Below, in pieces: positions 14,445 to 31,458 of a DNA stretch of 64,000 bases (positions are counted from its first letter, which is position 1; every line of letters starts with the position of its first letter). The stretch spans positions 1-64,000 of the forward strand of contig NZ_JAKLWS010000003.1 of the NCBI RefSeq assembly GCF_022012475.1, in the 5' to 3' direction. A program made the translations under genes and the position numbers. The notes beneath the pieces are model-generated. The model had not been told where the DNA came from and searched no databases. It saw only the letters and a list, made by a program, of their open reading frames with translations. Origin of the DNA: Rhodohalobacter sulfatireducens. GTDB taxonomy: Bacteria > Bacteroidota > Rhodothermia > Balneolales > Balneolaceae.

Positions 14445-15014
14445 TTAAATACGGCTGTCTTTCCCGGTATTCACAAATCGAATGCACTGTCCCTGGTTTT
14501 TGAACCCGTACTCATCCCATTGGCCATTTTTGCAGTCAGCTTTGTTCTCGGGATTAAAATAGCAAGCAGTAGATCCCGGGCTAAAATTTGTACTACCTTC
14601 TGGACAAATAGAACATACGGCGGCGCCCGAAATGTTTGAGAATTTACCAATAGGACAAAGTTCAGCCTGAGCTGCACCTTCACTGCTTACAAAAGATCCG
14701 GGTTGGGCAACTTTGCATGCAGCTTGTCCAGTTTCATCCTGATACGTGCCTATTTCGCAAGGTAATGCTTGTGTAGCTCCTGCTTCAGGGACATATTTTC
14801 CAACAGGCGCGGGTTCACAAGGTGTGTTTCCTGTGGCACTATAATAACCGGGTTCACAAGGTGTTTCGACGTTTGCAGCAGTAGTTATCTGTGCCGATTG
14901 AATACCTTCGTTGGAGGTGCCGGCGATATCCTGGTTACAGCTTACAACGGTTACGCACAGCAGGAAAAGTGCAATCATACTCCCTGTTTTGGAGAATTTT
15001 ATTAAAGGTTTCAT
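14445..15014 (-). CDS. Cysteine-rich lipoprotein with ephrin-receptor-like (GCC2/GCC3) repeats
   Basis: The start is taken as the ATG at 15014 (189 residues); a TTG two codons upstream is possible. A signal peptide ends in a clear lipobox, VVSC. After a short linker come about four repeats of the kind PCEPGYYSATGNTPCEPAP, CEIGTYQDETGQAAC, CPIGKFSNISGAAVC and CPEGSTNFSPGSTAC. Their spacing matches the cysteine-rich GCC2/GCC3 or ephrin-receptor-like repeats better known from eukaryotic surface proteins. Disulfides would form after export, so a surface or periplasmic binding role is inferred. The linker shares the tetrapeptide GIQS with the lectin-like lipoprotein gene just upstream. Strong terminators follow both genes, so they are probably separate transcripts. 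Confidence 0.85.
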   Translation of the reverse strand: MKPLIKFSKTGSMIALFLLCVTVVSCNQDIAGTSNEGIQSAQITTAANVETPCEPGYYSATGNTPCEPAPVGKYVPEAGATQALPCEIGTYQDETGQAACKVAQPGSFVSSEGAAQAELCPIGKFSNISGAAVCSICPEGSTNFSPGSTACYFNPENKADCKNGQWDEYGFKNQGQCIRFVNTGKDSRI

Positions 15015-15176
15015 GAGCAATCTATTAGTTGAATGGGTGCAGGTGTCAGCTTAAGATCAAGATATCTGACAGAAATGTAGTTTTTAAATACGGTAATAAT
15101 GTCGCATACAAGAAGGAGAGAATCTTGTACTTATTGAGCAAATCTTTGGACTATTTAATCCATTGGGCGTTCAAAC

Positions 15177-15233: not shown

Positions 15234-16325
15234 TTAATGTATCTGGAAGTTTCCTTTCCCAACGACTAATGAAGCTCCGAAAGCGGGTCCGAATACATCT
15301 TCGGTCGGCTGGAGTGTACAGAAGCTGGCAAGATTAAGATCTTCGCCTGTACCCGGATTAGACTCAGTTGCATAGAATCCAACCAGGTCATCATCAGCAT
15401 TTTTGCCTTGTCCGTTATCAACTATACGCCAGAGAAATGTGATGCCTGTTGGAATAATGGATTCATCCGATGATTGGGTAACCCGGGTACCGATCCAGGC
15501 ATTGTTGCCCCATACACTAAGGCAGGTTGATTCCATATGGAACGAAATTTTTGATCCGTCAGGATTTTGCAGGCTGCTTTGGGCCTGTCCTTTTACTACC
15601 AAATCACCGCCTTTTTGTGCATTAAATCCATAAATACGTTTTTGGATATCGCCATTACCTGTAACAACACGGATCACCTGTCCGCCCCCCGTAACCTTGG
15701 TTGGGCATTCGTATTCAACGACATATCCTTCAACAGCATAGAATGTTTCCCCATTATTTTCGAATGAGGTTGAATTTCCGTTCTGATCATTCCATCCTCC
15801 GTCTCCACCAGCGAATATTGTTGGAAGAAAATGAATGGAATTTTCATCAACAGCATTTGCATTGTTCGGTTCTCCTAAACGCCAGTTCGTATAGAAAAAT
15901 GTTTCGCCGGTTACCCACTCCCAGCCCCCTGCTGGTTCATCGGAACCGGATGCTTGAGAACCGCCCAGCCAGTAACCACCTTCTACAGCGTTCGGAAATG
16001 TATTAACGATCCAATCCTGTTCATTTTGTGAAGTTATCGTTGCCAGGTGAGCTTCGCATTTACCATAGCTAAGTTCTTGAGCAGCGACATTGGCATCATC
16101 CCAGGTAATACCAAGATCCTCTATTGCTGAGTAATAATTCCCGTTGTGCTCGTTGTAAACAAGACCTTCGGGTACACTTTTACCAAGAGCATCGACACCT
16201 AATTCCGATTGAATGCCATCGCCAGTATTCGTAGGCAGGGATGATTGGTCGCATGCTGCAACCAAAAGTAAAATTGGCAAAATCCATAAGACAGTATTTT
16301 TCAGACTTTTTAATTTGTTATTCAT
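15234..16325 (-). CDS. Lipoprotein with C-type lectin domain
   Basis: This 363-residue protein has a signal peptide ending in lipobox LLVAAC. Residues about 60-210 are a C-type lectin-like domain: YWLGGSQ, GGWEWVTGETFFYTNW, the sugar-type motif EPN in RLGEPNNAN, GGWNDQ (WND box) and a closing VEYEC. In animal lectins EPN goes with mannose-type ligands; whether that holds here is inference. The rest starts with TGGGQVIRV and resembles the all-beta Post-COAP type domain found in exported proteins, ending in Asp-rich loops that may bind Ca. The sequence GDGIQS after the lipobox recalls the neighbouring cysteine-rich lipoprotein. A surface carbohydrate- or particle-binding role is likely. Confidence 0.88.
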   Translation of the reverse strand: MNNKLKSLKNTVLWILPILLLVAACDQSSLPTNTGDGIQSELGVDALGKSVPEGLVYNEHNGNYYSAIEDLGITWDDANVAAQELSYGKCEAHLATITSQNEQDWIVNTFPNAVEGGYWLGGSQASGSDEPAGGWEWVTGETFFYTNWRLGEPNNANAVDENSIHFLPTIFAGGDGGWNDQNGNSTSFENNGETFYAVEGYVVEYECPTKVTGGGQVIRVVTGNGDIQKRIYGFNAQKGGDLVVKGQAQSSLQNPDGSKISFHMESTCLSVWGNNAWIGTRVTQSSDESIIPTGITFLWRIVDNGQGKNADDDLVGFYATESNPGTGEDLNLASFCTLQPTEDVFGPAFGASLVVGKGNFQIH

Positions 16326-18832: not shown

Positions 18833-19099
18833 TTATAATTCAACCTGCGTTGACATACTGATGGGTTCAATCACTGTATGAAGATCTTTAACTTCCTGAT
18901 TTTTCGGGTCGTTAATGATCGCTCCAAGTAATTCCAGGTCGGTAACTTCCAGGACTAAAGTCACTGAATTTGGGTCATCAGTATTCTGGAATGTTTTAAA
19001 ACCCGTAACTGCCGGGGCAAAGAGATTGACCCGATCCTGGTGACCTTTGAGCCATGTTTTGATGTTGCCTACTTTGTGTTGAACTACGATTGTTGCCAT
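18833..19099 (-). CDS. Small dimeric alpha/beta-barrel-like protein
   Basis: This protein of about 88 residues (91 if the ATG at 19108 is used) has a beta-alpha-beta pattern, ATIVVQHKVGNIKTWLKGH, VTGFKTFQNTDDPNSVTLVL, EVTDLELLGAIIND. It resembles ABM/cyclase-type ferredoxin-fold proteins that act as small oxygenases or stress proteins. No catalytic residue can be named. The start at 19099 puts the shared leader motif about 22 nt upstream, the same spacing as at its two sister genes. It is probably expressed with the oxidative cluster. Confidence 0.75.
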   Translation of the reverse strand: MATIVVQHKVGNIKTWLKGHQDRVNLFAPAVTGFKTFQNTDDPNSVTLVLEVTDLELLGAIINDPKNQEVKDLHTVIEPISMSTQVEL

Positions 19100-19121
19100 T
19101 TTTTCCATTTTAACTTTTTCT

Positions 19122-19149
19122 TGCCTACTCTTTGCGGTTTTCGGCTTTC
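19122..19149 (-). promoter_or_regulatory. Shared leader motif, copy A
   Basis: Sense strand blocks AAGCCGAAAA and AGAGTAGGCA are separated by about 7 nt. Both are also in copies B and C upstream of two other genes of this cluster. The 3' block ends about 22 nt before ATG 19099. Confidence 0.65.
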
Positions 19150-19252
19150 CCCGGTTATGCTAATTTGTTGAAACCAATTTCCTCCCGACCTTCAAAAAAC
19201 TCAAAGTGCCGGGGATATTATTGCTTTCAAAAAAAGAAGTTCAGTAAATGGA

Positions 19253-19843
19253 TTAATCGGTTTCCGGGTTAAGAATATCTACATTCATCGCTTCAATGAT
19301 CAGAGCCCTGTCGTAATACGTGTAATACCGGTCGATTAAAGAGTCTTCATTAAAGTGAAGAGCAAAATTCATCCTGAGATTTACAGTATTTCCGTTGTCA
19401 AAAGCCAATTCATTCGAGAAATAGGAAATCACAAAAACACCCGTCAATGCCGAGTAATTGAGAGCTTCACTATTTACGCGAATGGGCATTAGATCTGGTT
19501 GTGTAATTGTCATCGATTCAATTCCGGATGATGCTACCCAGTTCTTCCACCAGTTGACGACTTCTGTCTTTCCGTTTAAAACGGTTCTTGTTCCGGAATC
19601 TCCGTCAGGGAAGTAATACTCAACATCATCTGCAAGCAATGTGCCCCAGGCATCAATATCGAAATCGGACAGATGATTGAGTGCCTCCAACGAAAGATCG
19701 ACATATTCTTCCGATGCAATTTCATATCGTGAATTTTCAGCTGAGCTTGAAGGCTCCATGGTCTCACCCTCGCATCCCAGGACAGTTAGAATACAGGCTA
19801 TAGAAAGTATGGGTATTAGGTTGTTTTTCATTGTTTTTTTCAT
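19253..19843 (-). CDS. NTF2/SnoaL-like lipoprotein
   Basis: This 196-residue protein has a signal peptide with lipobox TVLGC. The mature part (about 40-185) has the cone-fold pattern of NTF2/SnoaL proteins: EYVDLSLEALNHLSDFDIDAWGTLLADDVEYYFPD, then an antiparallel sheet ending HFNEDSLIDRYYTYYDR. Family members include cyclases, isomerases and ligand-binding proteins, and no catalytic pair can be named with certainty. It lies between the small barrel protein and the O-methyltransferase gene on the same strand. Together with the lipoprotein at 23049 it gives the cluster two NTF2-like periplasmic proteins. Confidence 0.82.
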   Translation of the reverse strand: MKKTMKNNLIPILSIACILTVLGCEGETMEPSSSAENSRYEIASEEYVDLSLEALNHLSDFDIDAWGTLLADDVEYYFPDGDSGTRTVLNGKTEVVNWWKNWVASSGIESMTITQPDLMPIRVNSEALNYSALTGVFVISYFSNELAFDNGNTVNLRMNFALHFNEDSLIDRYYTYYDRALIIEAMNVDILNPETD

Positions 19844-19953
19844 TGTTGTGACCCCAGTTTTTAGTTGGTTAACATGTTTTTTTTGAATGATTGATACATA
19901 TGATTGTAGAAAGTGAGAGAGAATTGCTTACAAATCATGCCGGCTCGTTCTTG

Positions 19954-21024
19954 TTATTTGTAAGCAATAGCTGCGCTTGAAGGCCCGGCAAGCGGTAATA
20001 ATTCAACGGAACTGAAACCGGCTTTAGAGGTCCAGTGGTCGAAATCTGATAACGTGTAATCGAACCCGTTTTGAGTTTCGATCAGCATGTTTAAGCTCAT
20101 CGTCATCCCAAAAATATTACTGTTTCTCTCGTTGTCTATAATATTTTCGATGACAACGAAAGCTCCATTCTCAGGCAGTGCATCGTACGCTTTTTTGATG
20201 AGCACCTGCTTCTTATCCATTCCCCAGTCATGTAAAATATTGCCCATCACAATGACATCTGCTTTTGGGAAATCATCTACAAAAAAATCACCACTAATAG
20301 CTTTTACCCGGTCCGTAACCTTAAATTTTTGAATGTTCTCGTTTGCGATGGGTTCAACGGGCGGCAGGTCCAAACTGGTGCAAGACATATGCGGTTGATG
20401 AAGAGCTACCTGAATACTCAATGTTGCACCGGATCCGCCAATATCACAAAGGGTTTTGTACTCGGTAAAATCGAAACTATTGGCAAAGCCGACGAAATTT
20501 CCCATTTGAACACCGGTCATGGCATTAATAAACTCCTTGAGTCTACCATGATCACTGTAAATGGCTTCGAAAATATCATCCCCGTGTTTAGATTCGTTCT
20601 GAGCTTCACCGGTTTTTATCGCCAGGTCTAAATCAGCCCAAAAGCGAAATAACCGGTTATTTGCCATCTTTAGCATACCGCCGATGTAACTGTTTTTGTC
20701 TTCATCCAGGAAAACATTCGACTCAAGTGAATTACTGTAAATAGAATCCAGTCCAACGCCTTCACGATTAAGGAAACCGAGTGAGTGAAGCGTATCCAGA
20801 AAATCCATAGCATGGCGATCTGTACAGTTCCAATTCATTCGTTTTTTGATGTCATTGATTGATTGAGGTTTATGAACCAGGTGTGTAAAAAGACCTTCAT
20901 TTACAGCTGTTAGCAAAACTTTTGAAGTAAAAAAGCCCATACCGATCTTCATGATATGAGAGGGATCCGGTTGGTGTTCTGTTATTTCCATGGTGTTCGG
21001 GGTTAAGAAATTATGGCTTACCAT
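19954..21024 (-). CDS. SAM-dependent O-methyltransferase (methyltransferase family 2)
   Basis: This 356-residue protein (345 if the ATG at 20991 is used) has an N-terminal winged-helix dimerisation domain, MKIGMGFFTSKVLLTAVNEGLF. A class I methyltransferase domain follows, with the SAM motif LCDIGGSGATLS, the acidic SLDLP and IVMGNILHDW. His in HDW is the catalytic base in plant-type O-methyltransferases. Family members methylate hydroxyls of phenols, flavonoids or neurosporene. It has no signal peptide, so it acts in the cytoplasm. Next to a ring-cleavage-type dioxygenase and an epimerase it could modify an aromatic hydroxyl; this is inference. Confidence 0.9.
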   Translation of the reverse strand: MVSHNFLTPNTMEITEHQPDPSHIMKIGMGFFTSKVLLTAVNEGLFTHLVHKPQSINDIKKRMNWNCTDRHAMDFLDTLHSLGFLNREGVGLDSIYSNSLESNVFLDEDKNSYIGGMLKMANNRLFRFWADLDLAIKTGEAQNESKHGDDIFEAIYSDHGRLKEFINAMTGVQMGNFVGFANSFDFTEYKTLCDIGGSGATLSIQVALHQPHMSCTSLDLPPVEPIANENIQKFKVTDRVKAISGDFFVDDFPKADVIVMGNILHDWGMDKKQVLIKKAYDALPENGAFVVIENIIDNERNSNIFGMTMSLNMLIETQNGFDYTLSDFDHWTSKAGFSSVELLPLAGPSSAAIAYK

Positions 21025-21096
21025 GTCATTCTATGTGATGCTACAAATGACGAATCGCATCAGAAATTTTCCGGTGCAATTAAGAAGTAAGACCGT

Positions 21097-21987
21097 TTAT
21101 GCATCTTTGATATAAATGGAACTATGCTCATTAAAATCCATGTCAGTAAGCGTCATCCTCAGCTTTACTGAACCAGAGGGAAGAATTTCGAAATGTAAAT
21201 ACTGGTACATAGCATCAGGATTACCCGGATATTGGAATCTGTTGTTTCCCACATATTCAAACATTTCACCGTGCACTTCATTTTTCATCCAAAGCTTATT
21301 ATTGCTTTTAAAAAATTCTACGGCCGATTCGGGATTCTGCTCGTGAATGTATTCTCCGGTCAGTTTATCAATCGAAGAAGGCTCAATAGAGAGAGTTTTT
21401 GCCATATTGACCGGAAAATGAACCCGTGTGCTTCCATTGGAAAGCTCTTCAACATCAAGAACTCTTCCTTTTGCAGCTGCAGCCCATGGATCGGACTCAA
21501 TATGCTGATCTCCGGAAAAGTAGAGCTGTGTGACGAGGGGCTGGTACTCCTCCGTCGAAATCATCATATGAAAATGAGCGGGTCGAATAGTGCCGTCACC
21601 TACATCATAAGGAATCGGTAAAATGGTTTGGAAACTGTAACTACCGTCACTATTTGTGTAGGTAGTTCCCCTGTACCGGAAATCATCGGAACTGTTATCA
21701 TATACCCCGTAGCCGTCGCAGTGCCACAGTTCAACTTTGGCATTTCTGTAGGGTGTTTTGCAATCCTGGTGTCTTACAACTCCGCTAAGCTCGATCTGCC
21801 TCCCGGCTTCGCCCTCTATTAAAAGCGAATTTCGAACCGGACTGTCCGGCCTGTAAAATGGCCCCAGGATGTCTGAGGTTGTTTCACAATCTCCAACAAA
21901 TTTTTCGCCGTCGTATCGAATAAATCCAAATGTACTGACGGCTATGGCTGCAATCCCTGATTTTTTTAAAAAGTCTCGTCGCTTCAT
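21097..21987 (-). CDS. Intradiol ring-cleavage dioxygenase-like protein, Tat-type signal
   Basis: The 296-residue protein begins with a twin-arginine-like leader, KRRDFLKKSGIAAIAVS. The intradiol dioxygenase core is seen at WHCDGYGVYD (first Tyr ligand), GTTYTNSDGSYSF, ILPIPYDVG (second Tyr ligand, as in the GPYPW site of protocatechuate dioxygenase) and IRPAHFHMM (the two His ligands). All four Fe(III) ligands are therefore present. Known members split catechols or hydroxyquinols between the two hydroxyls. Export before or with the metal fits a Tat signal and suggests a periplasmic enzyme, less usual than the cytoplasmic catechol enzymes. The last ~100 residues have no motif I recognise. Confidence 0.88.
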   Translation of the reverse strand: MKRRDFLKKSGIAAIAVSTFGFIRYDGEKFVGDCETTSDILGPFYRPDSPVRNSLLIEGEAGRQIELSGVVRHQDCKTPYRNAKVELWHCDGYGVYDNSSDDFRYRGTTYTNSDGSYSFQTILPIPYDVGDGTIRPAHFHMMISTEEYQPLVTQLYFSGDQHIESDPWAAAAKGRVLDVEELSNGSTRVHFPVNMAKTLSIEPSSIDKLTGEYIHEQNPESAVEFFKSNNKLWMKNEVHGEMFEYVGNNRFQYPGNPDAMYQYLHFEILPSGSVKLRMTLTDMDFNEHSSIYIKDA

Positions 21988-22010
21988 ATGGGATTTATTT
22001 GTTTTAAGTG

Positions 22011-22955
22011 TTATTGATTGGAAGCATAATCTTTAAAGGATTCAGATGCCGGTTTAAAGGCTAGTGTCAAATCGCGCTCAGCATTATTGGCGCTGTAGAC
22101 AAATCGGGGCTTACCAAGGATATTCTCACTGTTGAGCATGTGTGAAATATCCGACACTTTCCAGCTCTCGTTACTCAGGTAGTACTGTTTTCCGTGAAGG
22201 CCGCTGATGGTTGCAGATTTATAAATTCCTTCAGCAACATCCCGAACATCCACAGTGGCAAATTCTACATCTTCATCAAAAAGCATTTGCACAAATGGGT
22301 TGGGTGCAATTTTGTTTTGAAACAGGTATTGCATACCCATGGAAGTCGAATCTTCGCGATTTGAAAGAGCCGGCCCAATTACGAAAACAGGATAAACACT
22401 CACGATTTCAGCATTTGACTCGGGGTAATCCTTCACAAACTTTTGTACAATTTGATCTGCGTAGTATTTAGCCTGTGCATAAGGATGTCCCTCTTCATTG
22501 AGATATGGTTTGTCTGATTCGGTATACATATCATCCGGAGAACGCCCAACAATCGGCATTGGGAAGTTGGTATTAAATGCGGCAACCGATGCAATAATCA
22601 CCACTTTTTTTACCGACATCGATTCTTGAACCGCCTTTAAAAAATTTTCAGTACCTCGAATGGTTGGCTCAAACAGATCTTTCGTCGGATCTTTAACATC
22701 CAATTGGAAAGGCGTACCTCCGTGGATAACGATCTCGCAATCTTCTACAAAGGGTTTGAGAGAGTCGATATCACGAACATCTACTTGGCAGATATCAAGT
22801 TTTTCGGCATTTTCGAGTTGCTCTAGGTGCGCATATTTTTTCTGTTTTGAAGCATCTCTGACGGATACTTTTACATGATATCCTTCTTTAAGAAATTTTT
22901 GGGTTACATAACTGCCGATGTAACCAGAACCACCAATAATACCTGCTGTTTTCAT
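22011..22955 (-). CDS. NAD-dependent epimerase/dehydratase (extended SDR)
   Basis: The 314-residue protein has the extended-SDR cofactor motif GIIGGSGYIGSYV at residues 5-17 and the catalytic YxxxK in HPYAQAKYYADQIV. VIHGGTPFQLD and VKKVVIIASVAAF are typical of dihydroflavonol-reductase-like members. It lacks a signal peptide. Members reduce ketones or aldehydes or epimerise nucleotide sugars. Given a neighbouring amine oxidase, reduction of a carbonyl product is plausible but inferred. It follows the 23049 gene, with a strong hairpin between them, and precedes the dioxygenase by about 20 bp, so the last two are likely co-transcribed. Confidence 0.9.
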   Translation of the reverse strand: MKTAGIIGGSGYIGSYVTQKFLKEGYHVKVSVRDASKQKKYAHLEQLENAEKLDICQVDVRDIDSLKPFVEDCEIVIHGGTPFQLDVKDPTKDLFEPTIRGTENFLKAVQESMSVKKVVIIASVAAFNTNFPMPIVGRSPDDMYTESDKPYLNEEGHPYAQAKYYADQIVQKFVKDYPESNAEIVSVYPVFVIGPALSNREDSTSMGMQYLFQNKIAPNPFVQMLFDEDVEFATVDVRDVAEGIYKSATISGLHGKQYYLSNESWKVSDISHMLNSENILGKPRFVYSANNAERDLTLAFKPASESFKDYASNQ

Positions 22956-22986
22956 AATTGTTTAGTAGTAGAGTTATTAATTGAGG

Positions 22987-23024
22987 TCTCGAAATGAAGA
23001 TCTCTAATAATCTTCATTTCGAGA
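22987..23024 (-). other. Perfect 15-bp inverted repeat
   Basis: TCTCGAAATGAAGAT and ATCTTCATTTCGAGA face each other across an 8-base loop, between the 23049 gene and the start of the epimerase gene. No T-run follows on the coding strand, so it may be an operator, an RNA stabilising hairpin or an attenuated terminator. Confidence 0.6.
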
Positions 23025-23048
23025 TTTTCAGATGATGAAATCTGAACC

Positions 23049-23534
23049 TTATTCCATCTCTGCGTCAGCCAACTGTTTGGTGTCAACGTACTGTTGGAAG
23101 CGAGTTACCATACCATCTTCAAACCACCAAATGTGAACATGTTGTGCATTGATTGTTTTTCCGGTTATTGCATGTTCTCCCTGGTATCTGCCAGTGGCAA
23201 TAACCATATCTTCACCGACTGCATAAAGGGTTTGGTCGGTCAGGTTAAATGTCTCCCATTCCTGTCCCAGCCGGCCAAAAATACCTTCCGCAACTGCCTG
23301 GGGTCCCACGTAAGGATTGCCATCCGCAAGTGAATTACTTTCAGCTTCATTCCAGACAATATCCGGTGAGAACTTTGCCAGGACAGCACCGCCATCGCCG
23401 GCGGCAAACGCATCGTACATTCCCTGCAGGATTTCTACATTTGGATTATTGTTTTGTACCTGACTGCACCCAACCAGAAACAGAGATGCTACGAGTGCAA
23501 TAGTTATTTTTTTGATTTTATACATGTTTTCCAA
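23049..23534 (-). CDS. NTF2/SnoaL-like lipoprotein
   Basis: The 161-residue protein (start possibly the next ATG, 23525) has lipobox FLVGC. The mature domain, NPNVEILQGMYDAFAAGDGGAVLAKFSPDIVWNEAES followed by VAEGIFGRLGQEWETF and VHIWWFEDGMVTRFQQYVDT, is a textbook SnoaL-like NTF2 fold. Such proteins can be polyketide cyclases, isomerases or binding proteins. The Trp/Asp/His pocket is suggestive but no mechanism is visible. It is in the same strand run as the secreted genes with the leader motif. Confidence 0.87.
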   Translation of the reverse strand: MENMYKIKKITIALVASLFLVGCSQVQNNNPNVEILQGMYDAFAAGDGGAVLAKFSPDIVWNEAESNSLADGNPYVGPQAVAEGIFGRLGQEWETFNLTDQTLYAVGEDMVIATGRYQGEHAITGKTINAQHVHIWWFEDGMVTRFQQYVDTKQLADAEME

Positions 23535-23585
23535 AGATTTATGAATGTTTTGAGTTGAAAAATCAGATTAAAAAGAGACCTTTAT

Positions 23586-24356
23586 TTATTCCGGCATCGG
23601 CCGGCTTAACTCTGTATCTTTTCGAAACATATACGACCATGTTACATCTACAGCTTCCCTGTAATCAGCCTGGAGTTCTTCTCTTCGATTGGATCCATGT
23701 TCATTTTCAACAACGGTCCAAACTCCATCCATTTCAACATCCATAGCAGCGAAGTTTGAAAAAGGGGTCACAACAAAATAATGGGGGGCTTTCGTGTTTC
23801 CTCCAACTGAACTGTACCAGTATCCTCTTGGTTCTCCCTCAGCTTCACGGATTGTGCTTTCAACTTCTTCAACTGTTTCTCTGAAAAGGGTACTATTATT
23901 AACCCTCCAGAAAAATACCGTTATCACATTATTCTCAACCAACTCGGGTTTGCTCAGTTCAGGAATGCTTCTGGCTAAATTAGCTTCAGATTTTTCAATA
24001 TTAGGCATGATTGAATTTTGAACAATAGATTGGCATTCTTGTCCTGCGGGATCGTTCTCATCCATTTCTGCCCAATTATTCATAAAGGATGATAGTATAT
24101 AGACGTTTCCTTCACCTTGTACTCTTCTCCACATATTCCAGGCCCAATCTCCATCATTTTCCATATAACAATTAATCCAATCTTTAACACCGGAACGAAA
24201 CTGACTGTTATGATTAGCTTTAATGGTTAATTCAGATAAGGATAATATCTGACTTTGAGCTTCTTCTTGTGCATATACGTTAGAAGAAGTGATCGTAAAA
24301 CAAAGAACAACTACAACAGCTCCCAGAGCTTTCTTTAATATTCTCATCGTTTTCAT
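23586..24356 (-). CDS. Secreted protein of unknown function, possible dimeric barrel
   Basis: The start is taken as ATG 24356; a longer frame to 24422 would run through the shared leader motif, which argues against it. The 256-residue product has a signal peptide ending SNVYAQ. The mature part contains DWINCYMENDGDWAWNMW, NVYILSSFMNNWAEMDENDPA and TKAPHYFVVTPFSNFAAMD, suggesting a repeated ferredoxin-like fold, but I do not recognise the family. Trp and Asn are frequent. It is in the periplasm or outside the cell and lies in the oxidative cluster between an NTF2-like lipoprotein and another secreted protein. Confidence 0.78.
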   Translation of the reverse strand: MKTMRILKKALGAVVVVLCFTITSSNVYAQEEAQSQILSLSELTIKANHNSQFRSGVKDWINCYMENDGDWAWNMWRRVQGEGNVYILSSFMNNWAEMDENDPAGQECQSIVQNSIMPNIEKSEANLARSIPELSKPELVENNVITVFFWRVNNSTLFRETVEEVESTIREAEGEPRGYWYSSVGGNTKAPHYFVVTPFSNFAAMDVEMDGVWTVVENEHGSNRREELQADYREAVDVTWSYMFRKDTELSRPMPE

Positions 24357-24376
24357 AATATGAAGTGTTTTATTGT

Positions 24377-24405
24377 TGCCTACTCTTTTTGGGATTTTCG
24401 GCTTC
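24377..24405 (-). promoter_or_regulatory. Shared leader motif, copy B
   Basis: Sense strand reads AAGCCGAAAA, then TCCCAAAA, then AGAGTAGGCA, ending about 20 nt before ATG 24356. It matches copy C at nearly every base. Confidence 0.7.
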
Positions 24406-24475
24406 TTCCATTTTGTAATCATCCTCTGTGTCGATTCACGTAGCCTAAATCAACTCATGGAATTTTTTGCAAAGG

Positions 24476-25123
24476 CTAATCCATTTCCATAGAATGAGCG
24501 GTTGTATGATGCTCGCAAGAAACGTTTGGATTGAAAGGATTGAACACGCCGTTCGGATTTTCACGATGCACCCAAACATGGCGGTCATAGTGTTCTTCAA
24601 ACATGTGTGCTTCATCGAGTTCGGTATCAGGATTATCTTTCATATGGTCGAATACCACTCCGTGAAATGTAGGTGGGGCGTCATTTCCATTAGCATGCCA
24701 TGCTTCAGCAAATACAAGGTTTTCAACAGCGACGAGCTCCATTGAGCCGTCCTCCTGAGGTTCGTATAACAAAATAGCTGGTTGACGAAAGTCAGTGTGA
24801 GTACCTGCTCCATCTACACGGGGTTCGGTAGCTGTAATCCCCAGCAGATCAGGTCGAAAATAGTGGATTCCCATTCCACCTTCTTCAGCAGGGCGTCCCA
24901 TCATCGTTGCCATTTCACACGTATTCATTGGGTCGGCGATATAACCTTCTTCCAACGCAACATTCACATCTTTGTATTTGTTAGTGGCCGTTCGTATCTC
25001 TTCAAGTGTCGGCTCATTCATTTTTTTCTGTTGTGCAAGGACTGTATTGGAGATCGGAACAAAAAGAAGAGCTGCAATGACAGACCACAGAACAGTACAC
25101 AAACATTTTTTTAATGTGTCCAT
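24476..25123 (-). CDS. Secreted protein of unknown function with His/Glu/Cys-rich sites
   Basis: The 215-residue protein has a Sec signal ending in VLAQQ. A conserved-looking core reads GYIADPMNTCEMATMMG, GGMGIHYFRPDLL and RQPAILLYEPQEDGSMELVAVE, then VVFDHMKDN and HYDRHVWVHRENPNGVFNPFNPNVSCEHH. This order (HYxxP, LLYEP, LHVWxxxxNPxG-type) matches a family of unknown function I have seen in Gram-negative bacteria. The paired Cys and many His suggest metal binding or a disulfide, which is inference. It carries leader motif C and follows the copper amine oxidase gene by about 90 bp. Confidence 0.8.
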   Translation of the reverse strand: MDTLKKCLCTVLWSVIAALLFVPISNTVLAQQKKMNEPTLEEIRTATNKYKDVNVALEEGYIADPMNTCEMATMMGRPAEEGGMGIHYFRPDLLGITATEPRVDGAGTHTDFRQPAILLYEPQEDGSMELVAVENLVFAEAWHANGNDAPPTFHGVVFDHMKDNPDTELDEAHMFEEHYDRHVWVHRENPNGVFNPFNPNVSCEHHTTAHSMEMD

Positions 25124-25147
25124 GATCGTTAATTAATTGAATTTAAG

Positions 25148-25178
25148 TGCCTACTCTGTTTTGGGATTTTCGGCTTTC
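25148..25178 (-). promoter_or_regulatory. Shared leader motif, copy C
   Basis: Sense strand has GAAAGCCGAAAATCCCAAAA then CAGAGTAGGCA, ending about 24 nt before ATG 25123. It lies between the copper amine oxidase stop and the next gene. Confidence 0.7.
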
Positions 25179-25210
25179 TCCTGGTAAAACAAACTGTAGT
25201 TTATTTGAAC

Positions 25211-27199
25211 CTATTTTTCAGGTAAGTCAAGTGCCGGGTTGCGATTAAAGAAATCAAATGGTCTCAACTCAAATGAGTGCCATAAAACAGGCATCACCGG
25301 CCAGTCTTCAGCTCTTACCATATGGTGCATTCCTATTGTATACCAAAGCACAATGTCATCGCTTTCTATAGATCGATTGGCGCTTGTCCACTCAGGCAGG
25401 CCTTTTTCGGGTAAGCTCAGTGTTGGAAAATCACCTACTGCAAATCGTTCATTTTCCTGGTATTGAGTAACCCAAAGATGATAATCGATAAACCCAACTC
25501 GCATTCTTGGATAATCATCTTCACTTAATAGTGTATTCGCAGTTTTTCCCGGCATCAACTGGTAACTGGTAGGATATCCAACATGATTTTTCCGGTCATT
25601 ACTAATTACCCGCCACAGGGCCGGTCGGTCGAGATTGATTTTTAACTTGGCTTCTGATTCAGTTTTAGGAATCATTGGCTGGGTAACCCATACACTCCGG
25701 CGGGGATGTTCTTCAGGTAGGATTTGTGTTCTCAGGCGGTCCATTTGAAAACTGTTTGTACTACCATCCACATCAAAATCAATTCGAAAACTGAAGTAGT
25801 GGTCATGGTTCACAGCCACAATATTTGGGTCAACAAATCGCCCATAGGCATCCCCGGCGGTTCCATTTAGAATTTCTGAGGAGGCATCTTTCTGATTTAC
25901 AGATTTTGCTTCGGCAATTCCGGTAGCTCCCACCTGGACACGCACAGACCCATCCTGCTGGAATATCCAGTCAAAAATGTAATCATAATTACCCAACACG
26001 GCTGCTGACCGCACAACCAGCTCTCGTTTTGAACGGCTTTCATGATTCAATCCGGTGCTGTAATGCCGCCATGATGGATCTCCGGGTTCTCTTTCAAAAA
26101 TGGCAATCATATTGGCGACAGGTGTAGGCCTTCCATGATCGTTAATTACCAATCCATCCGTATAGTGTGCATAATCTGGTGCATCTAGACCTCTCAGCAG
26201 GGGCTTGGTGAGGCCGCCGGCAGTATATTCCCCTGCATCAATAAAATTTCGTGGATACCAACCAAAAGCCGGATCCATATAAGGCACAAAAATTTCAGAC
26301 ATAAATCCTTCATAGAATACTTTTCTTTGATCAGCTCCATCTTGGTAGGTAACGGTCGAAAGAATCATTCCTACACGATGGTCGGGGCGTACGTGAAACT
26401 TCCATTTTTGCCATTCGACTACATAATCATTGATTGTAAATCCGGCTCCAAGCGGTTGGCTGATGTTGATAGGTCCGGGCACTTCCCGCGGCGTTCCAAT
26501 GGAAGCGGGGTCATAGTCGATATTTACATCCGGAATGGAAACGACTCCCTCATCAACCACGCGAAGGATCTCTTCCGTTTGCAAATCAACGACAACAGTA
26601 AGGCCACTGATTCCCCGTCCCCAGGTGTTGCGGGCAAATCTTGAATCTACAAAATGGCCGTGTGCAATCCGCCGTCCTGTATCTTCATCGGTTCCAAAAT
26701 AGCCGGGAGGACCAAAAAACCCTTCAATAAAGGTCAGGTCATTATACCCTCTCTTTTTCATGGCGGCAATAAATTCAGGATGCTCCTTTACCTTTCCAAG
26801 CATGCTCCCGAATTCTTCACCTAAAAACGTAGGTTGGATATCTGTAAGTTCTGTCCAGTTTTCAAGAACTTGTTGGGCAATATTGATTTCGGCACGGTAG
26901 GTCTTTTCGCCCTGGTGAACAATAGCAAAAGCTCTTCTTTGAAGATTATCGGTCCCATCCCAATTCCACACTTCATTTTTGTCCGGAAGTATTAGGTTGA
27001 TATGAGAAAACCTTGTGTCTTCGTCAAGATTATCTGTTTGATGCAGTACATCCAACACTACCCAGTATTCTTGCCAGGTTAAAGGATTCAGGGGATGTGT
27101 GATGCCTTGGCCTTTAACTGCTGTGGAATAAAGACTTACACAAAGGGTGAGCAGAATCGACAGAGAAATTAGTCCCCCGATTCTTATTCGATATTTCAT
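25211..27199 (-). CDS. Copper-containing primary amine oxidase, secreted
   Basis: The 662-residue protein has a Sec signal ending near VKGQ. The quinone-forming signature is NYDY, with Tyr405 the expected topaquinone precursor. The general-base Asp is Asp321 in FIDAGEYTAG. Copper ligands are His465 and His467 (NHDHYF) and probably His626 in MHHMVRAEDWPVMP, a hallmark segment of the family. The reaction is oxidative deamination of a primary amine to aldehyde, NH3 and H2O2. Length is near the usual 640-760. It is the first gene of the minus-strand cluster after a hybrid two-component regulator. The substrate, perhaps an aromatic amine, is inferred only from neighbours. Confidence 0.95.
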   Translation of the reverse strand: MKYRIRIGGLISLSILLTLCVSLYSTAVKGQGITHPLNPLTWQEYWVVLDVLHQTDNLDEDTRFSHINLILPDKNEVWNWDGTDNLQRRAFAIVHQGEKTYRAEINIAQQVLENWTELTDIQPTFLGEEFGSMLGKVKEHPEFIAAMKKRGYNDLTFIEGFFGPPGYFGTDEDTGRRIAHGHFVDSRFARNTWGRGISGLTVVVDLQTEEILRVVDEGVVSIPDVNIDYDPASIGTPREVPGPINISQPLGAGFTINDYVVEWQKWKFHVRPDHRVGMILSTVTYQDGADQRKVFYEGFMSEIFVPYMDPAFGWYPRNFIDAGEYTAGGLTKPLLRGLDAPDYAHYTDGLVINDHGRPTPVANMIAIFEREPGDPSWRHYSTGLNHESRSKRELVVRSAAVLGNYDYIFDWIFQQDGSVRVQVGATGIAEAKSVNQKDASSEILNGTAGDAYGRFVDPNIVAVNHDHYFSFRIDFDVDGSTNSFQMDRLRTQILPEEHPRRSVWVTQPMIPKTESEAKLKINLDRPALWRVISNDRKNHVGYPTSYQLMPGKTANTLLSEDDYPRMRVGFIDYHLWVTQYQENERFAVGDFPTLSLPEKGLPEWTSANRSIESDDIVLWYTIGMHHMVRAEDWPVMPVLWHSFELRPFDFFNRNPALDLPEK

Positions 27200-27339: not shown

Positions 27340-30300
27340 TTAAATCGATAACTTCCTGAAAGTAGATGGACTTTTGCCATACTGCTTTTTGAAAGCCCGG
27401 GAGAAATAAGCCTGGTCATTAAACCCAACTTCGTAACAGATCTCCGCAATGGTTTTATCTGTTTGATTGAGTAGTTCGGCAGATCGCTGTAACCGAATAG
27501 AGCGAATGAATGTACCCGCAGGCTGATCAATAAGTGCATTGAGTTTCCTGTTGAGCTGGGATGTACTCATATTCAAAGATTCTGCAAAGTGTTCAACACG
27601 GAAGTCATCATCACATATATGCGTTTCGATAATTTCAATAGCTTTTTTCAGAAATGTCTGATCAACGGAGCTTTTTGTTATGGTTGACGGCTTGAAATAA
27701 GTGGCGCGGCTAAACTGCTCTTTTAAATTTTTTCTTTGGTCAATGAGCGCTTTTACTCTTGTTTGCAACTCCTTTACATGGAATGGTTTAGTGAGATAGG
27801 CGTCGATACCAATTTCAAGGCCTTCAATTTTAGGGTCCAGGCCCGCTTTGGCAGTTAACATGATAATGGGTATATGACTTGTTTTTACGTCGCTTCGGAC
27901 CTTTTCGCTAAACTGGTAGCCGTCCAATTCAGGCATCATTAAATCGGTGATAATCAAATCGGGAATGGTTCTACGCGAAATAGCAATTCCCTCCTGGCCA
28001 TTGGCAGCTTCAAGAATTTTATAGTCTGCTTCTAGCTGCTCACGGATAAATGACCGCACCTCTGCATTGTCCTCTACAATGAGTATCATCTCGTCATGCT
28101 CAGAAAGAAGGGCATCGAAATCTGGAATTTCCAGTTTTGAGGAACCGGTTTCAGCAGATCTTCTTTTACTAATCATAACATCAGATTGGGCAGGAATAAG
28201 ATCATCTTCAAATGGAAGCTGAATAATAAATTCGGTTCCAACATCTACTTTGCTTTCCACTTCAAGTGTACCGTTGTGGAGTTTAACTAATTCATAAGCT
28301 AATGAGAGACCTATTCCCGTTCCTTCATACTTGCGAGTGTTAGATGTATCGACCTGGTAAAATCGATCGAAGATATGAATCAAACGATCTTCTGAAATTC
28401 CAATCCCGGAATCTCTGAGCACTATTTCAACAAATCCGGCATTTTTTAAACCAATGGATAGGTCAATTCGCCCACCTGCACCTGTGAATTTAAAAGCATT
28501 GGATAAAAGGTTGAAAAACACTTTCTCTAGTTTGTCTGCATCAAAACTAATTTTGATATCAGCTTGGACGGAGGAAAAATTGAGGCTTATATTTTTCGAT
28601 TCTGCCAACGATTCAAAGGAGTAGAGCAGATTCTTTAGAAATGATACAATGTTGAGGGGTTCTGCATCCAGCTGCATCTTTCCAGCCTCCAGTTTAGACA
28701 GGTCCAGGAGTTGATTAATCAGTTCAAGAAGGCGTTCAGCATTCCTGTTTACAGATTCCAGTTTTTGTTTCTCTTTTTGGCCTACTTCTGTTCCAATAAG
28801 GGTTTCTATCTGACCAATGATTAAAGTAAGTGGAGTTCTGAATTCGTGAGAAATATTGGCAAAGAAATGAGATTTCAGATGGTCTAGGTTGCGCAAAGTA
28901 TCGGTTTGAATGCGTTCTATCTCAAGCTGATTCTTCAGGTTAAACCTGTTCAACTCATACCGCCGGGCACCGTAAAGCAACGAAAGCATCAGGATTCCAT
29001 AAATTCCATACGCCCACCAGGTTTGCCACCAGGGCGAGGTCACAATTACAGCAAGGGCCAAACCATCTTCATTCCACACGCCGTCGTTATTTGAGCCTTT
29101 AACACGGAATGTATATTCGCCATGTGGAAGGTTTGTATAGGTGGCCGAGGCCAGGTTACCGGATGAGATCCATTCGTCGTTAAATCCGTCGAGTTTATAC
29201 GCATATTTGTTTTTTCCCGGTGCTGAATAATCCAGTGCGGCAAATCCAAACGTAATAACATCGTCACGATAGGAAAGGGTTAGCTTATCACTTTCAGATA
29301 CGGATGCCTCCAAAAGATCAGGATTGGATTTAAAGTAAATCATCTCATCACCGATCTTTAAACTTGTAAGTACAACCGGCGGTTCATGTGGGTTATCTTT
29401 TATTTCATCCGGATAGAAATAGTTGAGCCCCTGGATTCCTCCAAAGAATAACTCTCCGCTTTTGCTTCTGAAGTAGGCGCCGGTGTTGAATTCATTACTC
29501 TGGAGGCCATCAAAAACATCGTAATTTCGAAACGTTTCTGATTGCGGGTTAAATCGAGATAGGCCTTTGTTTGTACTGAGCCATAAATTTCCGGCTTCAT
29601 CAGGAAGTATTCCGTAGACGACTTCATTGGGGAGGCCGTCTTCTTCTGTAAAATGTTCGAATATTCCGGCTCTGTAATCAAACTTATTGAGTCCGCCTGA
29701 AGTGCCGATCCAGAGAGTTGTTTCGGGATGAACCGGATCTTCAAGAATAGATTTTATAAGATTGTTGCTCAGGCTGTTGGGTTGGTCGGGATTGTTTTGA
29801 AATGCAGTAAATGTTTCACCGGATGAATCAAAACGAATCAAGCCGTTAGCCGTGCCAATCCAAAATATGCCATCCAAGTCCTGGAAAATAACCGGGCGTG
29901 GGGAATTATTAGAGGGTCCTGATGAATTAAATCGATAATGTTTAAACGTGCCGGCCTCTCTGTCGATCATTTTACTGAAGTGGTTGCGTGTGGCAATCCA
30001 GAGGGTACTGTCCCGATCTTCAAAAACGGCATTGACTTCCGGGTAAAGTTGTCCGTCGATATTTTCAAGTGTATGGTTGTATAACCTCGATTCATTTGAA
30101 ACCGGGTCGTACCTGAACAGCCCCCTCGCAGAGGCCGTCCAAAGATATCCATCAGTAGCCTGGATCATGGAATAGGCATCGGTATTTCCAAAATCATCGG
30201 GGCGGTCGGAGATGGTTTCGAAACTTGTCAATTCCTCCGTTTCCCGGTTCCATCGATAGAGTACATCTGCACTGATCCAAACATCTCCGGAGTTATCTTC

Positions 30301-31458
30301 TAAAATGGAGCGTATACTAAATCCTGTAATCCTGGAGGATGAATCCGGTGTTCTAGTGAGAGTCGGAAAGCGATTCGCCTTGAAGTCAAGGATGTTAATT
30401 CCAAGCCCTGATGTCCCTGCCCACAGAATGCCGGTATCGTCAATTAAGAGGCTCGAAATAAGGTTATGGCTGATTGATTCTGGATTGAGTGGTTCGTGCC
30501 GGTAGTAGGTATACTGTTTCGTTGACGGATCAAAGCGCATCAATCCCCCTGCTGTACCCAGCCAGAGATGCCCTATTTCATCTTCTGCGATGCGATTCAC
30601 ACTCCCCCAACCGTACCGATGCACCTCATACATGTGTGGATAGAACTCATAATTGCCGGAGTTCCGGTCAAATTGTACCATTCCGCTTTGGGTTCCAATC
30701 CAAAAATCGTTCCCTTTTTTACTGAGATGTATTGAGCAGATCTTATAATCTCCGGATGTTCGGGGAGCTTCCGGGTGCTTGGTTTCAAAAATGGTTCGGG
30801 TGAACCGTTCACTGTCCGCATGGAATTTATTGATTCCGTTTTCAGTACCCACCCAAAGAGTTTCATTTTCATCAATTAAAAGATTTGAAACAATATTGCT
30901 GCTCAGGCTTAGTTCGTTATTCGGATCATTCAAGTATTGCTTGAAGGTGTATGAATTTTCGATGTTCTGATCAAAAATTACGTTGAGAAGGCCATCCCCA
31001 ATGGTTCCGATCCACATTGTTCCGTCTGACCCCTCAATGATTTCTGTGATTTCATTTGAGTTTATTTTCTCGCCGTTATCATTCAATAGCGATATTCGTT
31101 GAAAAACGTCCGATTCTCTGTGAAAAACATTGATCTCTCCCGACAAGGATCCTGTCCAGATGAGGCCGCGGCTGTCTTCATATAACTTCATTACAAACGC
31201 ATCAGAGATTGTAGTGGAATCGAAGGGATTGTGCTGATAGACGACAAAATTTCGACCGTCGTATCGGTTCAGCCCGTCTTTGGTACCAAACCACATAAAA
31301 CCTTGGCTGTCCTTAAGAATGGAATAAACGGCATTTTGAGAGAGTCCGTCATCAATGGTGAGGTGACGAAAAGCCGGTTGCTGGGCATACCCGTTTAACG
31401 CCTGCAAAAATAACAGGATACAGATGCCCTTTATTAAAGATATCAACAGCTTTTTCAT
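27340..31458 (-). CDS. Hybrid two-component system regulator (propeller sensor, histidine kinase, receiver, AraC)
   Basis: About 1,372 residues if the start is ATG 31458, which gives a clean signal peptide ending NGYAQQ. The periplasmic part holds two-component-regulator propellers, with repeats like GFMWFGTKDGLNRYD and LWIGTSGGLNKFD, then a Y_Y_Y domain. After a membrane helix (WWAYGIYGILMLSLLY) come HisKA with His near 876 in ANISHEFRTPLTL, and HATPase with LLSNAFKFT and GTGIGLSLAY. A receiver follows with the phospho Asp in LIITDLMMPELDGY, then a C-terminal AraC HTH (last 100 residues, ending AYFSRAFKKQYGKSPSTFRK). Such proteins usually sense carbohydrate at polysaccharide loci. Here the neighbour is the copper amine oxidase gene, so it likely controls that cluster; this is inference. 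Confidence 0.95.
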   Translation of the reverse strand: MKKLLISLIKGICILLFLQALNGYAQQPAFRHLTIDDGLSQNAVYSILKDSQGFMWFGTKDGLNRYDGRNFVVYQHNPFDSTTISDAFVMKLYEDSRGLIWTGSLSGEINVFHRESDVFQRISLLNDNGEKINSNEITEIIEGSDGTMWIGTIGDGLLNVIFDQNIENSYTFKQYLNDPNNELSLSSNIVSNLLIDENETLWVGTENGINKFHADSERFTRTIFETKHPEAPRTSGDYKICSIHLSKKGNDFWIGTQSGMVQFDRNSGNYEFYPHMYEVHRYGWGSVNRIAEDEIGHLWLGTAGGLMRFDPSTKQYTYYRHEPLNPESISHNLISSLLIDDTGILWAGTSGLGINILDFKANRFPTLTRTPDSSSRITGFSIRSILEDNSGDVWISADVLYRWNRETEELTSFETISDRPDDFGNTDAYSMIQATDGYLWTASARGLFRYDPVSNESRLYNHTLENIDGQLYPEVNAVFEDRDSTLWIATRNHFSKMIDREAGTFKHYRFNSSGPSNNSPRPVIFQDLDGIFWIGTANGLIRFDSSGETFTAFQNNPDQPNSLSNNLIKSILEDPVHPETTLWIGTSGGLNKFDYRAGIFEHFTEEDGLPNEVVYGILPDEAGNLWLSTNKGLSRFNPQSETFRNYDVFDGLQSNEFNTGAYFRSKSGELFFGGIQGLNYFYPDEIKDNPHEPPVVLTSLKIGDEMIYFKSNPDLLEASVSESDKLTLSYRDDVITFGFAALDYSAPGKNKYAYKLDGFNDEWISSGNLASATYTNLPHGEYTFRVKGSNNDGVWNEDGLALAVIVTSPWWQTWWAYGIYGILMLSLLYGARRYELNRFNLKNQLEIERIQTDTLRNLDHLKSHFFANISHEFRTPLTLIIGQIETLIGTEVGQKEKQKLESVNRNAERLLELINQLLDLSKLEAGKMQLDAEPLNIVSFLKNLLYSFESLAESKNISLNFSSVQADIKISFDADKLEKVFFNLLSNAFKFTGAGGRIDLSIGLKNAGFVEIVLRDSGIGISEDRLIHIFDRFYQVDTSNTRKYEGTGIGLSLAYELVKLHNGTLEVESKVDVGTEFIIQLPFEDDLIPAQSDVMISKRRSAETGSSKLEIPDFDALLSEHDEMILIVEDNAEVRSFIREQLEADYKILEAANGQEGIAISRRTIPDLIITDLMMPELDGYQFSEKVRSDVKTSHIPIIMLTAKAGLDPKIEGLEIGIDAYLTKPFHVKELQTRVKALIDQRKNLKEQFSRATYFKPSTITKSSVDQTFLKKAIEIIETHICDDDFRVEHFAESLNMSTSQLNRKLNALIDQPAGTFIRSIRLQRSAELLNQTDKTIAEICYEVGFNDQAYFSRAFKKQYGKSPSTFRKLSI

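Follow-up and report, generated by a model that had tools for sequence, protein, structure and literature searches.

Three leaders of the DUF805b RNA family

The subject of this analysis is a short leader element that occurs three times in a 64-kb stretch of the Rhodohalobacter sulfatireducens genome (the window, by which we mean the whole stretch of DNA analysed). The three copies precede three genes of a row that runs on one strand from 27199 to 18833 and contains genes for a copper amine oxidase, the proteins encoded at 24476 and 23586, a SnoaL-like protein and an epimerase, and then for a dioxygenase, an O-methyltransferase, a second SnoaL-like protein and an 88-amino-acid (aa) protein (Table 1). 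The first-pass annotation of the window had described the leaders as a motif of two blocks shared by genes for unrelated proteins, and had proposed a regulatory RNA in the 5' untranslated region (5'-UTR), a target of a small RNA (sRNA) or an operator as its possible nature.

The pair of blocks AAGCCGAAAA and AGAGTAGGCA has exactly three instances in the 64 kb, always on the minus strand (19122-19147, 24377-24404 and 25148-25176), and the pair was found in none of 100 dinucleotide shuffles of the window, so the three-copy motif is real. The blocks are separated by 6, 8 and 9 nucleotides (nt), not by the 7-11 nt first given. The distance from the motif end to the ATG is 22 nt for the start at 19099, 20 nt for that at 24356 and 24 nt for that at 25123, in agreement with the earlier estimate of about 20-24 nt. 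The genome-wide motif search that had been proposed found the exact two-block pattern nowhere else in the 5.1-Mb genome, and the absence of the full motif from the rest of the window was borne out by our own covariance model run with filters off, for which the next best place in the window scored 9.4 bits. The downstream proteins show no mutual BLAST similarity at expectation values (E) up to 1, which is consistent with their description as unrelated. The start codons that the motif had been taken to fix also agree with their homologues: the first Met of the homologue at locus L236 aligns with the Met at 19099, the alternative ATG at 19108 being only 13 nt from the motif, and homologues of the gene starting at 24356 have their ATG 19-21 nt behind their own copies. 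A supposed partial match near 18573 proved to be a 9-nt match of 7.2 bits (E 2.4) with neither helix of the element and no GAGUA, and it was rejected as a copy.

An Rfam scan identified all three window copies as DUF805b RNA (RF02914; clan CL00115, type Cis-reg), at or above the gathering cut-off of 35.6 bits and across model positions 1-35 of 35. Each copy has the P1 hairpin of RF02914, with four model pairs of which one is non-standard, and each lies in cis before a protein gene. The copies are 34-36 nt long; copy 1 starts 27 nt past the stop codon of the copper amine oxidase gene, and copy 2 starts 64 nt past the stop codon of the 24476-25123 gene. As judged by sequence comparison, the three leaders are new members of an already catalogued cis-regulatory RNA family with no known function. 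The earlier remark that they match no known riboswitch is formally correct, as Rfam lists the family as Cis-reg only, but it had missed that the family was already catalogued. DUF805b is said to have been described by Weinberg et al. in 2017. A literature search returned, apart from one machine-learning paper in which RF02914 appears, no account of DUF805b RNA, the likely source paper being beyond its reach; the second helix P2, the bulged-G module, the placement behind same-strand genes and the viral copies are added here and may stand in the original description. Comparison establishes the identity of the element, its RNA nature and its position, and from these we infer its mechanism below.

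Table 1. Coordinates of the DUF805b copies and of the neighbouring genes in the window
Feature	Coordinates	Strand	Score or family
DUF805b copy 1, best read as an H-type pseudoknot	25148..25183	-	Rfam 43.3, own model 44.7 bits
DUF805b copy 2	24377..24411	-	Rfam 45.6, own model 48.1 bits
DUF805b copy 3	19122..19155	-	Rfam 35.6, own model 38.0 bits
Gene behind copy 1, 215 aa, secreted-looking by eye	24476..25123	-	No Pfam/NCBIfam family
Gene behind copy 2, 256 aa, signal-like N-terminus by eye	23586..24356	-	No Pfam/NCBIfam family
Gene behind copy 3, 88 aa	18833..19099	-	No Pfam/NCBIfam family
SnoaL_2-like protein, next in row, no DUF805b of its own	23049..23525	-	Pfam PF12680
Copper amine oxidase, directly upstream of copy 1	25211..27199	-	Pfam PF01179, E 1.5e-128
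Hybrid two-component regulator (propeller, Y_Y_Y, kinase, receiver, AraC-type helix-turn-helix), upstream of row	27340..31458	-	

Crossing helices and conserved loops

The structure line of the Rfam scan draws P1 only. In 160 oriented hits, the three letters before GAAAA in the loop are complementary to the three letters after GAGUA at the 3' end, and this complementarity defines P2. (The set comprises 163 hits minus L026, L027 and L028, which are weak and have no GAAAA block; the weak rows L010-L014, L025, L029-L031, L033 and L036 had been kept out before the 163.) P2 is fully paired in 137 of 153 distinct copies, compared with a mean of 63 and a maximum of 83 over 10,000 permutations of the partners. 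The pair sets comprise GCC/GGC (65 copies), TCC/GGA (37), CCC/GGG (10) and ACC/GGT (9), followed by GCT/GGC (5), GCT/AGC (4), CCT/AGG (2) and TCT/AGA (2). Such an exchange can also be seen for a window gene: the element of a 77% identical homologue of the 24476 gene has ACC/GGT in place of the GCC/GGC of the window copy.

Covariation in the two helices was tested on an alignment of 60 hand-picked rows, with 500 shuffles and with controls in which the partners were slid by 1-3 columns. Taking both helices together, 93.5% of the cells are paired (93.9% without one misrecorded row) versus 65.7% in the shuffles, 108 cells are changed on both sides versus 29.6, and the covariation score is 0.686 versus 0.156; none of these three values was reached by any of the 500 shuffles, and the slid controls had at most 46.8% of cells paired. 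P1 forms all four of its pairs in 74 of 151 distinct copies (mean 12 and maximum 24 in 5000 shuffles), with all four Watson-Crick pairs at two positions and a mixed picture at the rest. The element thus has two crossing helices with compensatory changes, as looked for in an H-type pseudoknot. Because the paired letters of P1 and P2 co-change across copies, those of the outer P2 pair in viral copies as well, the DUF805b sequences are best read as an H-type pseudoknot with a P1 of 3-4 bp and a P2 of 3 bp, and the covariation of P2 argues for an RNA rather than a DNA operator.

The conserved loops are GAAA and GAGUA, and the gap between the two blocks ranges from 5 to 15 nt across copies. All of the 152 distinct hits contain GAGTA, and 149 of them have G at position 13, the other 3 having A; this invariance is partly built in, since the hits were picked by a model that rewards these letters and the anchor requires AAA after position 13. 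The loop strands beside P2 read GAA and AGUA. In the bulged-G motif, also known as loop E or sarcin-ricin, AGUA stands opposite GAA beside a closing Watson-Crick pair, and the two loop strands of DUF805b may prolong P2 as a module of this kind.

Several results weigh against the family assignment or the proposed structure. Copy 3 (19122-19155) sits exactly on the Rfam cut-off. Two of the five covariation measures do not top the shuffles, namely the pairs with changes on both sides (6 versus 4.8, with 72 of 500 shuffles as high) and the further pair types (18 versus 18.6, with 377 of 500 as high). Only the 74 copies mentioned above complete all four P1 pairs, the outermost and weak pair of this helix fails in 21 of 55 rows, and 16 of the 153 copies break at least one P2 pair. 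The consensus fold gives only the three inner P1 pairs at -3.2 kcal/mol, by a method that cannot draw pseudoknots. As for the bulged-G module, it is proposed from a sequence pattern whose letters hardly vary, and covariation is therefore uninformative on it.

Occurrence in bacteria and viruses and position relative to genes

The genome of R. sulfatireducens has five copies over the Rfam cut-off. The two that lie outside the window are diverged and precede a subtilase-like gene on C116 and a paralogue of the 23586 gene on C85. Below the cut-off, the model matched a single weak place (C47, 22.5 bits) and five others with E of 0.17-0.84. Matches at E up to 1 occur in all of 14 control genomes and at E up to 0.01 in two of them, and none of the 14 has a copy over the Rfam cut-off. 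With the own genome counted each time, copies over the cut-off are present in 7 of 98 relatives, 8 of 128 genomes of the order and 75 of 394 genomes across the phylum, and a single genome carries up to 15 matches at E up to 1e-4. From the matches listed in the phylum survey, 28 places were used as new loci and 103 as places in 100 stretches. An exact 18-base pattern was found in at least 114 stretches of a species collection, and the titles of all 80 listed matches name organisms that we take to be Bacteroidota. The Rfam cut-off is reached by 13 of 17 pattern-found loci (L194, L209, L228 and L236 are below it), and a scan of these 17 reported DUF805b only and not the sister family DUF805 proper. 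Among plasmids, one of 42 records, from Aureibacter tunicatorum, matches more than 80% of the query; the place (NZ_AP025307.1:133781-133814) is likely a DUF805b copy, with 88.6% identity over 92% of the query.

The distance between the element and the start codon was taken as that between the motif end and the first ATG that opens a frame of 30 codons or more. It is 17-25 nt for 128 of the 160 Rfam hits and for 80 of the 121 pattern hits, compared with 60 of 1210 random places taken within the loci of the pattern hits, and a shift of the motif end by 10 nt in either direction leaves only 7-9 of the 160 hits in this range. In the 18 nt that follow the motif, A makes up 53% and G 5% of the letters. 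A Shine-Dalgarno-like string is present in 12 of 160 spacers, including those before the subtilase-like gene, both in the own genome and in relatives (L006, L016-L018 and L074). No complementarity excess indicating an anti-element was detected in the next 60 nt (mean longest match 4.94 versus 4.86). On the upstream side, among the 169 cellular copies that have 700 nt or more of upstream sequence, 28 start no more than 60 nt after a same-strand open reading frame (ORF) of at least 100 aa, compared with 68 of 1690 random places. Among 142 non-redundant copies, no upstream element at a fixed distance was found beyond the A-richness of the last few nt. The usual promoter element of the phylum lies at -7, and it showed no clear enrichment, with 17 instances in 280 copies within the last 50 nt and 4-17 in earlier bins.

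Among the matches listed, a count by eye gave at least ten more sets of two or three same-strand copies clustered within 4 kb, and the presence of one copy per gene within a row points to action on single cistrons. At L232 and L237, and more loosely at L176 and L242, the ATG follows at 45-50 nt and a AAAGTTTAGCTTTT-like stretch lies between the knot and the start; by eye, this stretch is perhaps a second small hairpin. Elsewhere (G284:C45:33303-33482), two DUF805b copies stand about 110 nt apart on the same strand, and no ORF of 30 codons was found behind the upstream one.

DUF805b is also present in viruses. A loose pattern gave at least 120 stretches in virus contigs, of which 80 were listed and searched (L289-L368, IMG/VR); as this sample was selected by the pattern, the counts that follow are no rate among viruses. 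With our own model, 59 places of at least 24 bits were found in 53 of the 80 stretches, and 49 of the 59 lie 15-26 nt before an ATG. P2 is paired in 58 of these copies (55 by a cruder parse), with all four Watson-Crick types at its outer pair; the pattern fixes the two inner P2 pairs of the places it found. Each of 25 whole virus records, chosen for having a match, has a copy over the Rfam cut-off, and in eight of them the matches at E up to 0.01 number two or three. The viral copies often follow a same-strand ORF of at least 60 aa closely: of the 57 copies with enough upstream sequence, 26 start within 60 nt of one (random 146 of 1180) and 18 within 20 nt (random 43 of 1180). One ParB-like PHROG family accounts for 9 of 57 viral downstream proteins, and the Pfam search of these proteins gave nine families with one protein each. 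The most detailed case is Flavobacterium phage vB_FspS_lillamy9-1 (NC_048835.1, host Flavobacterium sp. LMO9), where a copy of 51.9 bits occupies the 59-nt gap between gp40, which ends at 12776, and the annotated ParB-like gp41, which starts at 12836, and lies 20 nt before the gp41 ATG. Hosts are given only for named Flavobacterium phages, and two of three phage queries returned short partial matches only.

The genes behind the element are highly diverse. A simple word-sharing rule groups the 266 downstream proteins (at least 35 aa, with their ATG 9-70 nt past the motif) into 218 clusters. Family matches were taken at E up to 0.001, and for three of four family lists the first 25 entries were considered, which for Pfam means 25 of 38 and 25 of 47 families. 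DUF6520 was found in 7 of 110 and 6 of 108 downstream proteins, bacteriocin-like leader proteins in 11 of 110 and a putative bacteriocin family in 4 of 110; the families listed also include DUF2589 (3 and 2), PixA (3), TM2 (1 and 3), DUF805 (2 and 1) and subtilases (2 and 1). Precursors of ribosomally synthesized and post-translationally modified peptides (RiPPs) are represented by two class I lanthipeptides, one pinensin type and one NHLP type. No uniting pathway is apparent among the families listed.

Homologues of the window genes were sought in the loci fetched for or around the element. The expectation that the motif would be kept in relatives was borne out, as each of the three genes has homologues that carry it. 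DUF805b also precedes the 77% identical homologue of the 24476 gene in L019/L409. The 23586 gene has homologues of 36-46% identity that follow a DUF805b copy, both in its own genome (L007) and in three relatives (L022; L034 and L037; L072 and L073). Its search against PDB gave no credible relative, the best match being a designed propeller at E 0.00099. For the 88-aa gene, homologues with 57-60% identity follow the element in Maribacter arenosus (L228) and Maribellus (L236), where the elements score 39.4 and 38.1 bits by our own model and are below the Rfam cut-off.

Proposed role of the element and its alternatives

Our preferred interpretation, to which we give a probability of about 0.6, is that the pseudoknot leader is recognized by something general to its hosts and tunes the translation of the next cistron. 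The knot would work on the cistron directly behind it. Its 3' end, about 20 nt before the ATG, would abut and not cover a structure-poor region from -20 to +20, and the knot would be recognized there by a factor common to the hosts (the ribosome, a widespread small molecule or a general RNA-binding protein), so that initiation would be tuned gene by gene. Flavobacterium and other Bacteroidia do not use Shine-Dalgarno pairing (PMC6847099, PMC9976891), and in F. johnsoniae RNA structure is lowered from -20 to +20 around start codons and tunes translation there (PMC6847099). That the element acts on translation, and in which direction, we infer; that several unrelated viral genes use the element speaks somewhat for a mainly positive effect. 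An enhancer, a protein-bound switch, a riboswitch and an RNA stability element may all be considered as candidate roles. As an orphan family, DUF805b is narrowed by these data to an RNA with a covarying pseudoknot, a narrow distance to the start codon and a frequent place behind a gene, in hosts as well as viruses. Given the little use of Shine-Dalgarno pairing in Bacteroidota, an element at this place makes the tuning of initiation directly testable.

A number of observations weigh against the translational reading. The evidence that suggests it is comparative, and a role in RNA processing or stability would give the same placement in short gaps. No alternative pairing with the start region was found, and thus no sign of a classical switch. 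In most genomes of the order no copy exceeds the cut-off, so that any partner must be general or kept without copies, and one homologue of the 23586 gene, in L412, is without the element. The ribosome argument was drawn from Flavobacterium, and the class of the window organism may differ in this respect from Bacteroidia; since Shine-Dalgarno-like spacers occur in relatives and in the own genome, the argument may not fit the window organism.

Among the alternatives, a DNA operator or alternative promoter, serving for instance the hybrid two-component system encoded upstream of the row, appears very improbable. This regulator has an AraC-type domain, and its homologues (70% identity over a part, and 49%) share stretches with DUF805b copies at L412 and L413, both from one genome of the family: the L413 homologue lies near a 23586-like gene with the element, and the L412 homologue is on the same stretch as an element before a sulfotransferase-like gene. 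However, the paired letters co-change in two helices, the gap between the conserved blocks varies, no conserved upstream element was found at a fixed distance, the gaps to same-strand genes are often short, and copies precede very diverse genes in Bacteroidota and on virus contigs. The operator or promoter reading was rejected on the covariation, the variable spacing and the missing fixed upstream element, and this part of the first-pass proposal falls. The regulator may add a transcriptional layer to the row. The proposal of a 5'-UTR regulatory RNA stands, given the RF02914 match, the covariation in two helices and the narrow start-codon distance, and the conservation of the motif is better accounted for by the pseudoknot structure than by the reading as an sRNA target.

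Second-messenger riboswitches have many unrelated targets in one genome, and the number of DUF805b matches in single genomes is reminiscent of them. The compactness of the knot, whose loop letters between the two short helices are nearly invariant, would also suit a riboswitch. A small H-type pseudoknot aptamer that binds a common signalling or stress metabolite is nevertheless an unlikely explanation, as the downstream families listed share no apparent pathway, no anti-element was found in the next 60 nt, and the ParB-like viral genes would be unusual targets. A comparison can be made with the preQ1-I riboswitch, likewise an H-type pseudoknot of about 35 nt near a gene start, and it extends only to the way of working: preQ1-I is not among the families that the Rfam scan matched in the window, the genes downstream of DUF805b are diverse, and its knot ends about 20 nt before the ATG rather than covering the ribosome-binding site. 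Somewhat more doubtful still is a site of RNA processing or stability, at which the knot would shield the 3' cistron after upstream cleavage, or be cut itself, and thereby give genes inside an operon mRNA levels of their own. The frequent place right behind an upstream gene speaks for it, and a knot would be well placed to protect the 5' end left by such a cut; the tight ATG distance would be needless for protection alone, and no letters are conserved upstream of the knot except for the A-richness of the last few nt.

With respect to tuning of translation by a pseudoknot leader, a partial likeness is offered by the translational leaders bound by ribosomal or other RNA-binding proteins, which are also small structured RNAs before a cistron, often in operons. 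Such leaders usually control the gene of the binding protein itself, whereas the genes behind DUF805b are very diverse. More tentatively, the element might be a portable RNA tag, a pseudoknot with a bulged-G module built in, in a phylum with little use of Shine-Dalgarno pairing. It would dock on the initiating 30S subunit, at its upstream edge, and either raise or gate the translation of single cistrons, including those for secreted peptides and RiPP precursors, and some viruses of the phylum would have adopted it to drive genes within their operons.

The neighbouring genes of the row also have relatives near the element. The SnoaL_2-like protein has a homologue with 51% identity in Allomuricauda profundi (L191) that is preceded by a copy of 38.0 bits by Rfam. 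The homologue of the 88-aa gene in Maribacter arenosus (L228) has, at a distance of about 1 kb, a gene that fuses SnoaL-like and cupin-like parts; in four relatives (L021, L023, L069 and L071), genes that resemble the cupin-like part, as judged by eye, have the element. Apart from the row, a cysteine-rich repeat protein (14445-15020) is encoded in the window beside a protein with a C-type-lectin-like stretch (15234-16325), a pair that, judged by eye, looks unusual for bacteria.

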